This document shows, one piece after another, positions 38,544-52,708 of a stretch of DNA of 64,000 nt; the first letter of the stretch is position 1; each line of letters opens with the position of its first letter. The position numbers and the translations under genes are program-made. The notes below the pieces were generated by a model that searched no databases, was not told the DNA's origin, and saw only the letters and a program-made list of their open reading frames with translations. Location: positions 1-64,000 of the forward strand of contig NZ_JADWYQ010000011.1 in NCBI RefSeq assembly GCF_022414575.1, in the 5' to 3' direction. The stretch comes from Streptomyces sp. MUM 178J. Lineage in GTDB: Bacteria > Actinomycetota > Actinomycetes > Streptomycetales > Streptomycetaceae.

Positions 38544-38587
38544 ACGGCCCCGTGGGACCGGGCAGCCGCCCGGTCCCACGGGGCCGT
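38544..38587 (+). terminator. Strong hairpin terminator before ung
   Basis: A perfect 20-bp stem (ACGGCCCCGTGGGACCGGGC with its complement) closes a four-base AGCC loop. It ends exactly where the damage-type promoter motif of ung begins. Confidence 0.88.
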
Positions 38588-38609
38588 TGTCAGTGGTCCC
38601 CGGTAGGTT
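38587..38609 (+). promoter_or_regulatory. RecA-NDp/PafBC-type promoter of ung
   Basis: TTGTCAGTG (38587-38595), exactly eight bases, and TAGGTT (38604-38609) match the mycobacterial RecA-independent DNA-damage promoter TTGTCRGTG-N8-TAnnnT at every defined base. Transcription would start near 38616, giving a leader of about 47 bases with GGAGGT. Confidence 0.75.
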
Positions 38610-38662
38610 CTGTGAAGCAAGAACACGGATCGCGAACTGATCCCATACCGGAGGTTGTTGAC

Positions 38663-48413: not shown

Positions 48414-48465
48414 GCCACCAGGCTACGGCCTCCGCGACGCGCTCGTCTTCCCCGCGACGGCTGTT

Positions 48466-48975
48466 CTAATCCCCCGATTCTCCGGCGTGCGGGCTGAGTA
48501 CATCCGTTCCGACCAGGATGAACAGCACAACTCCCAAGATCACTCGGTAGATCACAAACGGCATGAAGCTCTTCGTAGTGATGAACTTCATGAACGAAAC
48601 TATGTCGACGTGTCCTGAGCGGCTTTGACCTGCTGGTTTCCACCACTTTTCAAGATCGAATAGTAGAGCAGTGGGAGATGGCGCCTTCCAGTGCTCTCTC
48701 TCGCTGGCCGCGAAGCGCAGCCACCTGCTTTGCAGCGAATCGGCAATCTCCTGCTCCATGGCCAGGGCAACGTGCGAGTAGAGACCTTCCACGCCGGCGA
48801 CCTCGCGGCCCATGCGGATCTCCACGGCGATGCGACTGTGTCGATCTTCGTCCAGCCACTCCTTGCCGCCGTGACGAAGCAGGTACAGCCGCTTCCCGGC
48901 GTACGCGGTCGCGGGGAACCGGCCCCTGACCCGCGGCCAAACTGTCCAACAAGGCACTGGCCGCAGTGCGCGCCC
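48466..48975 (-). pseudogene. Tyrosine integrase C-terminal remnant fused to a displaced uppP tail
   Basis: Reading from about 48975 down to 48600, the frame encodes a recognisable integrase C-terminus. LRHGGKEWLDEDRH corresponds to the RHxxK-type catalytic box, and GREVAGVEGLYSHVALAMEQ to the region with the active tyrosine, ending in EIADSLQSRWLRFAA. The N-terminal recombinase domains are missing, so it is inactive. Without a stop the frame continues through the left repeat and finishes with the last roughly 41 uppP codons and a TAG at 48466-48468. Streptomyces integrases often abut the att site in this way. Confidence 0.75.
48471..48595. repeat. Left attachment repeat (displaced 3' end of uppP)
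   Basis: These 125 bases are identical to 51841-51965 except for one transition (T at 48499, C at 51869), which is synonymous in uppP. The copy encodes the last codons of UppP (to HAGESGD) and ends at the boundary of ancestral flanking DNA. Confidence 0.9.
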
Positions 48976-49276: not shown

Positions 49277-49299
49277 TTGTCGGTGCCGTCGGCTAGCGT
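49277..49299 (+). promoter_or_regulatory. RecA-NDp/PafBC-type promoter of the element's ATPase-nuclease
   Basis: TTGTCGGTG (49277-49285), eight bases and TAGCGT (49294-49299) match TTGTCRGTG-N8-TAnnnT exactly. The ATG follows seven bases later without a ribosome site, so a leaderless, DNA-damage-inducible transcript is predicted. Confidence 0.72.
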
Positions 49300-49306
49300 G
49301 CGAGGT

Positions 49307-50890
49307 ATGCGCTACTTCAATACGGCCGGGCCGTGCGTCCCCACGCGCCACTACATGGTGCCGGCCCAGGAGCGGCTGCCCAGGGCCCGCGGGTACATCG
49401 AGCAGGGCCAGTACTTCGTGGTGCACGCGCCGCGGCAGACCGGGAAGACGACGGTGCTGGCGGCGATGGCCCGGGAACTGACGGCCTCGGGCCGGTACGC
49501 GGCGCTGCACTTCTCGTGCGAGAGCGCGGAGGTGGCCGGGGAGGACTACGGCCAGGCCGAGCTGCTGGTGCTGGAGGCGATTCGGCGGTCCGCGGAGTCC
49601 GCTGAGCTTCCTGATGAGCTCGCGCCCCCCGCCTCCTGGCCCGACGCGGTGCCCGGGTCCCGGCTCACGCGGGGGCTGACTGAGTGGGTGCGGAGCTGTC
49701 CGCGTCCGCTGGTGCTGTTCTTCGACGAGATCGACGCGCTGCGGGGGGAGAGCCTGCGCAGTGTGCTGCGCCAGTTGCGCGATGGCTTCACTGTCAGCCG
49801 TGGCGGCTTCCCGCATGCGGTGGTGCTGTGCGGGCTGCGGGATGTGCGTGACTACAAGGCGGCCTCGGGCGGGGATCCGGGGCGCCTTGGCACGTCGAGT
49901 CCGTTCAACATCAAGGTGGCGTCGCTGCGGTTGGGCGACTTCACCGAGGCCGAGGTCGCCGAGCTGTACGGGCAGCACACCACGGAGACGGGCCAGGACT
50001 TCACGGTGGATGCGCTGGAGCGTGCCTTCAGCTTTACCCAGGGACAGCCGTGGCTGGTCAACGCGCTGGCCCGGGAGGTCGTCGAGGAGATGGGGGTGCC
50101 GTCGGACACGCCGATCACGGCCGAGCACATGGAGGAGGCGAAGGAGCGGCTGATCCTGGCGCGTGCGACGCATCTGGACTCGCTGGCCGCCAGGTTGGGC
50201 GAGGACCGGGTGCGGCGCGTGATCCAGCCGCTGATCGCGGGCGAGCTGCTCCTGCCGACGGACACGTACGACGACGATCTGGCGTACGCGCGCGACCTGG
50301 GGCTGGTCGCTCCGGACGCGCCGGTGCGGGTGGCCAATCCGATCTACCAGGAGGTCATTGTCCGGGTACTGGGAAACAACACGGAGGGCCAGGTCGTCGC
50401 CGCCCCGAGCAGCTTCCGGCTGCCGGACGGCCGGATCGACATGGACAAGCTGCTGTGCTCCTTCGCCGAGTTCTGGCGGGAGAACGGCGAGATCCTGGCC
50501 ACCGCCTCGACCTACCCGGAGGCCGCGGCGCAGCTGGTGATGATGGCCTACCTGCATCGGATCGTGAACGGGGCGGGTTTCATCGACCGGGAGTACGGGG
50601 TCGGCCGGCGGCGCGTGGACCTGCTGATTCGCCAGCCGTACACCGCTGCCGACGGTTCGCGGGCGGTGCAGCGCGAGGCGCTGGAGCTGAAGGTGTGGCG
50701 CCAGGGCCGCACCGACCCCCTCGCCGAGGGGCTGGCACAGTTGGACGACTACCTGGACCGCATGGAGCTGTCCACGGGCACCCTCGTCGTCTTCGACACC
50801 CGCCCGAAGGCAGCCCCGGTCCACGAGCGCACCGCCTTCTCGCAGCAGACCACGCCCTCCGGGCGCACCGTCACCCTGCTGCGCGCCTGA
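49307..50890 (+). CDS. AAA+ ATPase with C-terminal PD-(D/E)XK nuclease-like domain
   Basis: A 527-residue protein. The N-terminal half is a STAND/AAA-type ATPase: Walker A at about P42-T49 (PRQTGKTT) and Walker B at LVLFFDEIDAL (D140-E141). About 270-400 is a winged-helix-like region (VRRVIQPLIAGELLLPTDTYDDD). The C-terminus has a PD-(D/E)XK core: VDLLI with D438 and ALELKVWR with E460 and K462. Relatives are annotated only as ATP-binding proteins; a role in DNA processing or phage defence is inference. It lies inside the element at uppP and has an exact damage-type promoter. Translation is leaderless. Confidence 0.85.
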   Translation: MRYFNTAGPCVPTRHYMVPAQERLPRARGYIEQGQYFVVHAPRQTGKTTVLAAMARELTASGRYAALHFSCESAEVAGEDYGQAELLVLEAIRRSAESAELPDELAPPASWPDAVPGSRLTRGLTEWVRSCPRPLVLFFDEIDALRGESLRSVLRQLRDGFTVSRGGFPHAVVLCGLRDVRDYKAASGGDPGRLGTSSPFNIKVASLRLGDFTEAEVAELYGQHTTETGQDFTVDALERAFSFTQGQPWLVNALAREVVEEMGVPSDTPITAEHMEEAKERLILARATHLDSLAARLGEDRVRRVIQPLIAGELLLPTDTYDDDLAYARDLGLVAPDAPVRVANPIYQEVIVRVLGNNTEGQVVAAPSSFRLPDGRIDMDKLLCSFAEFWRENGEILATASTYPEAAAQLVMMAYLHRIVNGAGFIDREYGVGRRRVDLLIRQPYTAADGSRAVQREALELKVWRQGRTDPLAEGLAQLDDYLDRMELSTGTLVVFDTRPKAAPVHERTAFSQQTTPSGRTVTLLRA

Positions 50891-51213: not shown

Positions 51214-51693
51214 ATGACTGGTGACTGGCGGAGGGACCGGATCGGGACTGCGTTGAGGGGCGAGAACCCGACCGTGCTGCGACGGCTGACGTCGGGGTTC
51301 GCGGTGATCGGGGACGTGCAGTTCCTGCCTGGCTACTCGGTCTTGCTCGTGGACGAGCCGGATGTGCAGCGGCTGTCGGACCTGCCGAGGGCGAAGCGGC
51401 TGTCGTTCCTGTCCGACATGGACCAGCTCGGCGAAGCGGTCGAGCGCGTCTGTCGGCGGCTGGACCCGGCTTTCCGGCGGGTCAACCTGGAGATCCTGGG
51501 GAACACGGACCCGTTCTTGCATGCGCATGTCTGGCCGCGGTTCGAGTGGGAGCCGACCGATGTGGTGGGTGCTCCGGTGTGGCTCTATCCGCGTGAGCGG
51601 TGGAGCGACGAGCGGTTCAGGCTCGGTCCGCAGCATGACGTGCTGCGGGATGCGATCAGCGGCGAACTGGACCAACTGCGCTCGGCGGCCTGA
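51214..51693 (+). CDS. HIT-like nucleotide-binding family protein
   Basis: A 159-residue protein resembling diadenosine tetraphosphate hydrolases of the HIT superfamily. FAVIGDVQFLPGYSVLLVDEP is the N-terminal sheet, PAFRRVNLEILGNTDPFLHAHVWPRFEWEP carries a modified HxHxxx histidine motif, and PQHDVLRDAISGELDQL is the C-terminal helix. It may hydrolyse or bind nucleotides or nucleotide conjugates. TAGGTT lies six bases before the ATG with no ribosome site, so the message is probably leaderless. It is the second cargo gene of the element and ends in a 12-bp hairpin. Confidence 0.82.
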   Translation: MTGDWRRDRIGTALRGENPTVLRRLTSGFAVIGDVQFLPGYSVLLVDEPDVQRLSDLPRAKRLSFLSDMDQLGEAVERVCRRLDPAFRRVNLEILGNTDPFLHAHVWPRFEWEPTDVVGAPVWLYPRERWSDERFRLGPQHDVLRDAISGELDQLRSAA

Positions 51694-51730: not shown

Positions 51731-51835
51731 GGTGATCGGTGACTGTCAGCCGAAGCTCACTGGAGGCGTCTGAGCGGGGCGATGCCGGCCGCCGTGATAG
51801 GAAATGCTAGATAGCGCTACCTGTGCGGCCCTGGT

Positions 51836-52708
51836 TCAGTCCCCCGATTCTCCGGCGTGCGGGCTGAGCACATCCGTTCCGACCAGGATGAACAGCACAA
51901 CTCCCAAGATCACTCGGTAGATCACAAACGGCATGAAGCTCTTCGTAGTGATGAACTTCATGAACCAAGCGATGACCGCGTACCCGACCACGAAGGCGAT
52001 GACCGTCGCGAAGATCGTCGGCCCCCATGACACATGCCCATCTCCCACGTCCTTCAGCTCGTACACCCCCGAGGCGAGCACGGCCGGGATCGCCAGCAGG
52101 AACGAGTAGCGGGCCGCCGCCTCGCGGGTGTAGCCCATCAGCAGACCGCCGCTGATGGTGGCCCCGGAGCGGGAGACGCCCGGGATCAGCGCCATGGCCT
52201 GGCACATGCCGAAGATCAGGCCGTCCCGGATGCCCAGCTGCTGAAGCGTCTTGCGCTCCCGGACGGCACGGTGCCGGCCTCCGGTCTCGTCGCGGGCGGC
52301 CAGCCGGTCGGCGAAACCGAGCACCAGGCCCAGGACGATCAAGGTGGTGGCGATGAGGCGCAGATCGCGGAAGGGGCCCTCGATCGCGTCCTTGAGTGTG
52401 AGGCCCAGCACGCCGATGGGAACGGAGCCGACGATCACCAGCCAGCCCATCTTGGCGTCGTGGTCGCTGCGCATCTCCTTGTCCGTCAGCGAGCGCAGCC
52501 ACGCGGACAGGATTCTGAGGATGTCCTTGCGGAAGTAGATCAGCACGGCCGTCTCCGTGCCGATCTGGGTGATCGCCGTGAAGGCCGCCCCGGGATCCTC
52601 CCAGCCGGCGAAGGCCGCGGTGAGCCGCAGATGCGCACTGGAGGAGATCGGCAGGAACTCGGTCAGCCCCTGGACGAGCCCGAGGATGAATGATTCGAAC
52701 CAAGACAT
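51836..52708 (-). CDS. uppP: Undecaprenyl-diphosphatase
   Basis: A 290-residue polytopic membrane enzyme that recycles the lipid carrier for peptidoglycan by dephosphorylating undecaprenyl diphosphate. The BacA motifs are intact: GLTEFLPISSSAHL with E17 and H26, and the arginine motif IPGVSRSGATISGG. About eight hydrophobic helices are visible. The last 43 codons lie in the direct repeat, so the gene was kept whole after an element integrated in its 3' end. The ATG at 52708 has only a weak ribosome site (GGGTGG). Loss of this gene would affect bacitracin resistance. Confidence 0.95.
   Translation of the reverse strand: MSWFESFILGLVQGLTEFLPISSSAHLRLTAAFAGWEDPGAAFTAITQIGTETAVLIYFRKDILRILSAWLRSLTDKEMRSDHDAKMGWLVIVGSVPIGVLGLTLKDAIEGPFRDLRLIATTLIVLGLVLGFADRLAARDETGGRHRAVRERKTLQQLGIRDGLIFGMCQAMALIPGVSRSGATISGGLLMGYTREAAARYSFLLAIPAVLASGVYELKDVGDGHVSWGPTIFATVIAFVVGYAVIAWFMKFITTKSFMPFVIYRVILGVVLFILVGTDVLSPHAGESGD
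51841..51965. repeat. Right attachment repeat (3' end of intact uppP)
   Basis: The 125-bp partner of 48471-48595. Here it forms the functional end of uppP. The sequences outside both copies differ completely, so the repeat boundaries are sharp. Confidence 0.9.

Follow-up and report, generated by a model that had tools for sequence, protein, structure and literature searches.

A 64,000 nt stretch of the Streptomyces sp. MUM 178J genome (RefSeq assembly GCF_022414575.1; positions 1 to 64,000 of contig NZ_JADWYQ010000011.1), referred to here as the window, was found to include a 3.4 kb element of two genes integrated at the 3′ end of uppP, also called bacA (Table 1). The larger gene encodes a protein that combines an AAA+ ATPase with a predicted PD-(D/E)XK nuclease and is directly preceded by a promoter motif of the PafBC type, whereas the smaller encodes a HIT-like protein. 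The element is bounded by a 151 nt direct repeat of the uppP 3′ end, and the two repeat copies, which are 93% identical, contain the only two TTCATGAA sequences in the window. Because the bacA 3′ end is duplicated and each copy carries TTCATGAA, the region is an element at the bacA/uppP site, as in islands of the PAISt type. The original prediction of a uppP element was therefore correct, and its description of the ATPase-nuclease gene as the only sizeable one was nearly so, the HIT-like open reading frame (ORF) having 159–161 aa. A remnant beside the left repeat copy aligns with the C-terminus of the end integrase ORF of PAISt, but only this C-terminal stretch of an IntSt-type integrase was found, and no other integrase-like ORF was seen in the element.

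The promoter motif consists of TTGTCGGTG, eight further bases and TAGCGT, which ends 7 nt before the ATG, exactly as predicted. This distance fits the expectation for a leaderless mRNA. The motif agrees in consensus and spacing with the RecA-NDp promoter in the cited part of PMC8223512, confirming the proposed match to a damage promoter. The consensus TTGTCRGTG-N8-TAnnnT was present at 2 sites in the window, compared with none in 100 shuffles. The other exact site (38587–38609, forward strand) lies 2 nt 5′ of a uracil-DNA glycosylase ORF that starts at 38612 (PF03167, E 1e-16).

Table 1. Features of the uppP element and its ATPase-nuclease gene in the window
Feature	Coordinates	Strand	Evidence and details
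Left copy of uppP (bacA) 3′ end, att-type repeat	48461..48611		TTCATGAA at 48587–48594
IntSt-like tyrosine recombinase remnant, C-terminal part	48685..48903	-	58% identity over 73 aa; no Pfam match
PafBC/RecA-NDp-type promoter, TTGTCGGTG-N8-TAGCGT	49277..49299	+	TTGTCGGTG at 49277–49285, TAGCGT at 49294–49299; pattern match, genome counts, homolog conservation
AAA+ ATPase–PD-(D/E)XK nuclease gene, 527 aa (ATG at 49307)	49307..50890	+	ORF, Pfam, alignment, predicted fold, dN/dS
P-loop (Walker A) APRQTGKTT, residues 41–49	49427..49453	+	G46, K47, T48 and T49 invariant in 40/40
Walker B LFFDEID, residues 137–143	49715..49735	+	F139–D143 invariant in 40/40
C-terminal PD-(D/E)XK domain, residues 361–527	50387..50887	+	Catalytic D438, E460, K462, Q478
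HIT-like passenger gene, not conserved as a partner	51214..51693	+	PF01230 below cut-off
Right repeat copy, 3′ end of intact uppP	51831..51981		TTCATGAA at 51957–51964
uppP/bacA, intact host gene, 3′ end is the integration site	51836..52708	-	PF02673, E 2e-86

Conservation of the promoter motif in Streptomyces

Homologs of the ATPase-nuclease gene were examined in the best 80 of 126 loci found. The motif counts omit locus L109, which has no upstream DNA, and the row for L104, which has an in-frame stop, was dropped from A3. In all 22 Streptomyces loci exactly 7 nt separate the end of the motif from the start codon, with 18 exact matches and four with one mismatch. However, 18 of the 22 are near-identical recent copies and have little weight as proof of conservation. 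The four diverged copies (L046–L049; 81–86% protein identity) match the window at 20–21 of the 23 positions across the motif but at only 9–21 of 45 positions just upstream of it, indicating that the motif has outlived most of its surroundings.

Outside these 22 loci, L021 and L022 are broken copies from the Streptomyces genome search, and L028 is a C-terminal fragment with no start. The motif is present at 7 nt with one mismatch in L021, and has been lost from the N-terminal fragment L022, where the best site has 4 mismatches.

The damage motif in the host genome and PafBC

The whole host genome carries 16 sites matching the consensus and none matching the reversed pattern. Across 61 Streptomyces genomes, including the host, there were 1491 matches (a hand-compiled sum of per-genome counts of 11–44) against 6 for the reversed pattern; thus, the exact motif is far above chance in the genus, and it is strongly enriched in every one of the 61 genomes. 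Eleven of the 16 host sites end 2–7 nt 5′ of an ORF start, eight of them at exactly 7 nt, where the downstream ORF was chosen by hand if several frames were open. Eight of the 16 downstream genes were assigned by Pfam to RecA, UvrB, uracil-DNA glycosylase, RuvC, DnaX, RarA/MgsA, O6-methylguanine methyltransferase and a RecD2-HHH-domain protein, the start of the last being 78 nt from its motif site. One further site belongs to the ATPase-nuclease gene and the rest precede genes for WGR, SWIM, DUF4253, DUF7873 and transporter proteins, or, in two cases, genes with no Pfam match. The DUF4253, WGR, DUF7873 and SWIM proteins (L002, L007, L010 and L014), which are uncharacterised, are all encoded behind exact damage motifs.

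A tandem pair of WYL-domain ORFs was found on contig C21 of the host genome, one gene downstream of pafA (TIGR03686, 769.5 bits), and these were named pafB and pafC from their position and domain. The gene between pafA and the pair, named by eye, is FKBP-like. Mycobacterial PafBC is described in the cited part of PMC11804915 as binding single-stranded DNA and then activating such promoters with sigma-A RNA polymerase. The motif is said to reach other Actinobacteria in the part of PMC8223512 used here, and a passage of PMC5087735 places a UV-inducible gene of S. coelicolor behind a RecA-NDp motif.

The ATPase-nuclease protein

The ATPase part matches AAA_16 and AAA_22 in Pfam, and the protein is, as judged from its sequence, an ORC/STAND-like AAA+ ATPase with a C-terminal PD-(D/E)XK domain, a predicted nuclease. 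The nuclease core proposed earlier (D438, E460 and K462) was upheld, as all 40 aligned homologs (55–92% identity to the query) have these residues and Q478 unchanged, and the surrounding elements are predicted in the order alpha-beta-beta-beta-alpha-beta, that of the PD-(D/E)XK superfamily core. Values of dN/dS of 0.14–0.41 in 15 pairs of Streptomyces copies indicate purifying selection. A sequence search of the PDB gave no match below E 0.5, a Foldseek search with the nuclease domain gave no useful rank, and no PADLOC defence model covered the protein, the best (PDC-S01; 17.4 bits, E 3.6e-4) matching residues 28–59 alone.

The closest design found was that of the DUF1703 proteins (PF09820 AAA-ATPase_like with PF08011 PDDEXK_9), such as those of the Cardinium expansion, which in the cited part of PMC6387759 also have an N-terminal ATPase and a C-terminal PD-(D/E)XK domain in one protein, a patchy, horizontal spread and several copies in some genomes. 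Unlike these, the protein studied here has AAA_16/AAA_22 and no PF09820 among its Pfam matches at E≤0.1, and its gene has a PafBC-type promoter. Weak PDDEXK_9 matches (best 9e-4) were found for the C-terminal domains of 26 of 36 homologs, and none for that of the query. The archaeal ATPases 2qen and 2fna differ in that their matches span only residues 1–353 of this protein. McrBC differs in consisting of two proteins with a modified-base reader. Those parts of the literature found for the family under other names described no such gene, with only DUF1703 close, and the same was true of those found for PafBC with phage defence or with integrative and conjugative elements (ICEs) in Streptomyces. 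The protein is an AAA+–PD-(D/E)XK protein of DUF1703-like design, and its gene is under predicted PafBC-type control and is carried by a bacA-site element.

Mobility and distribution

The integrase remnant adjoins the gene in all 18 near-identical Streptomyces copies, and the uppP tail was found on the same side in 16 of them (not in L034 or L111), with an intact uppP within the fetched flank in two (L034 and L036). The gene has the same kind of position in S. scabiei 87.22 and S. turgidiscabies Car8, at an element end just inside an att copy ~105 kb from uppP, a distance that matches the 105-kb module described for PAISt. In the cited part of PMC4057263, PAISt has TTCATGAA within a 141-bp duplicated bacA 3′ end, compared with 151 nt in this element, and that paper and PMC10711302, again in part, report an adjoining IntSt-like integrase, as here, for PAISt and other bacA-site elements. 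However, unlike PAISt, this element is only 3.4 kb with two genes, and its integrase is a remnant. The terms "ATPase" and "ATP-binding" occur 0 times in PMC4057263 and PMC10711302.

Between species (two genomes), synonymous divergence was 0.03–0.05 for the ATPase-nuclease gene but 0.5–0.7 for uppP, which shows recent horizontal spread of the gene. In L050, the ATPase gene is set off from the integrase remnant by an ORF (L050:4253-5035), which presumably encodes a protein resembling a Uma2-type nuclease.

Among 246 Streptomyces genomes, 11 had any match at E 1e-3, with four full-length genes and one broken gene (residues 1–419), and in a draw of 396 genomes from the phylum the gene was found in one, the window's own. 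An origin as a phage gene was rejected, as 50,697 phage records gave no match. Viral contigs gave three remote matches (28–34% over short stretches), and 13 plasmid records matched, all at <60% identity, 8 of them from Pseudanabaena.

Interpretation of the damage-type promoter and the nuclease

Most likely, the gene specifies a single-gene nuclease that would be induced by PafBC and translated from a leaderless mRNA. The host damage sensor probably turns it on, as the gene has the same damage switch as the host's own repair genes. In consensus and spacing this switch is that of the mycobacterial and Streptomyces RecA-NDp/PafBC promoters in the parts of PMC8223512 and PMC5087735 cited, and the host regulon has recA, uvrB, ung and ruvC; unlike the resident repair genes, however, the motif here serves an element-borne nuclease. 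We consider it probable, though well short of firm, that a stand-alone, horizontally spreading AAA+–PD-(D/E)XK nuclease has been captured by the host PafBC damage regulon in Streptomyces. The gene would sit at the att end of elements using the TTCATGAA site of bacA/uppP. Damage, stalled replication or an invading replicon would supply single-stranded DNA that makes PafBC active, and PafBC would redirect RNA polymerase to this promoter, TTGTCGGTG/TAGCGT, with transcription starting at or next to the ATG to give a leaderless mRNA. The ORC/STAND initiator-like ATPase domain may then load on DNA or form oligomers, and cleavage of the DNA would fall to the C-terminal nuclease.

Several findings weigh against this reading. 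The only direct context evidence, the regulon, is of repair. A first search reported in the cited part of PMC9380542 found the M. smegmatis motif not conserved in S. venezuelae, and on that ground left the existence of a LexA/RecA-independent damage response in Streptomyces unsettled; enrichment in 61 of 61 genomes, among which S. venezuelae was not identified, conflicts with that finding as a general statement. Finally, 52 of 57 non-Streptomyces homologs have no motif within two mismatches, so the damage wiring is a Streptomyces trait. The original prediction that the promoter is fixed to the mobile gene thus held within Streptomyces and failed outside it, where the motif is mostly lacking but the nuclease residues are kept.

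The other five non-Streptomyces homologs (L052, L057, L059, L083 and L103) have a site with ≤2 mismatches, 6–127 nt from the start, where 0.21 were expected, an optimistic expectation as the random windows behind it, taken within those loci, are not promoter regions, which are richer in TAGxxT. There may perhaps be looser parallels of the damage wiring in Nocardia and Frankia. Upstream of six of 16 Frankia-type homologs (L076, L082, L093, L095, L098 and L099), ATC[AG]TCGATC is followed within 3–5 nt by TAGG[GC]T, the element being placed 40–53 nt before the start; in the 183 kb that these loci span, the word ATC[AG]T[CT]GATC occurs only 10 times on the given strand. This element perhaps points to another regulator.

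The purpose of the gene (defence, repair or element upkeep) is the least certain part. We lean towards a role in conflict or in serving the element, by cutting foreign or damaged replicons, over plain host repair, as the gene is rare, spreads fast, lacks a fixed partner and encodes a predicted DNA cutter. A tentative extension, which we consider doubtful, is that it forms a one-gene immune or abortive module, in which a mobile nuclease with no sensor partner of its own plugs into the host single-stranded DNA sensor PafBC via the nine-base promoter element, so that a replicon flooding the cell with single-stranded DNA would switch it on. If so, the weaker motifs before the Nocardia and Frankia homologs would mean that the wiring arose more than once.

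Two further explanations share the switch and the nuclease with the reading above, capture of a spreading nuclease by the regulon, and depart from it in purpose only. A host-serving repair nuclease, obtained through transfer and controlled like recA or uvrB for damage-induced end-processing or mismatch-type repair, would suit the regulon but is rather unlikely given the patchy distribution, transfer between species far faster than that of uppP, and no recurrent link to repair genes among the homolog neighbours, including in a Pfam scan. Many prophages and ICEs use damage as a cue to leave, and the gene might similarly help bacA-site elements to transfer, excise or be retained. Its position ~0.7 kb inside the att end, beside the integrase remnant, agrees with this, as do the remnant and uppP tail accompanying the close copies, including those of S. 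scabiei 87.22 and S. turgidiscabies Car8. However, the window retains only a remnant of the integrase, the four diverged Streptomyces copies have no integrase remnant, uppP tail or intact uppP in the fetched flanks, and the non-Streptomyces loci likewise lack the remnant and the tail, making such a role equally improbable.

It is very unlikely that a constitutive sigma-A-type promoter merely happens to look like the damage motif and that the gene is an inert passenger. Although many homologs have a TAGxxT −10-like box shortly before the start (by eye, uncounted), the nine-base upstream element is kept in diverged copies whose flanks are not, the motif is enriched genome-wide, and the gene is under purifying selection.

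A spreading, uncharacterised nuclease tied to a defined damage switch is one whose function is directly testable. It also bears on the damage response left unsettled in the cited part of PMC9380542, given the enrichment of the motif in the genus and the expected repair genes behind it in the host.

Neighbouring genes

The ATPase gene was called in 75 of the 80 loci (L109 was not called, and L050, L064, L087 and L110 were missed), and neighbours within four genes were compared. Outside Streptomyces the commonest groups, named by eye, were histidine-kinase-like (7 loci), helix-turn-helix (6) and short-chain dehydrogenase (5) proteins, which are broad families, so that no specific partner gene emerged. 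At E≤1e-10, PADLOC matches among 100 neighbour proteins were scattered, with no family having more than two members and no control set for comparison, and included a few of type I methyltransferase, helicase, type IV and MADS; Pfam matches were mixed. These neighbours did not mark the gene as part of a defence island, although the proposed role in defence may still apply. Second, diverged copies of the family itself were found two or three genes from the homolog in five loci (L088, L090, L091, L092 and L096).

The HIT-like protein, proposed earlier as a second component, was rejected as a partner, as it was encoded beside none of the 80 homologs (tblastn E≤1e-4, flanks up to 6 kb) and in none of the four other Streptomyces genomes carrying the ATPase at E<1e-200. 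It is common in the genus (96 of 246 genomes at E≤1e-15), and its gene is a passenger. Two 99% identical copies of the HIT-like protein of the window are encoded in one genome (G230:C1:21631 and G230:C1:2645501), one of them 21.6 kb from its contig start.
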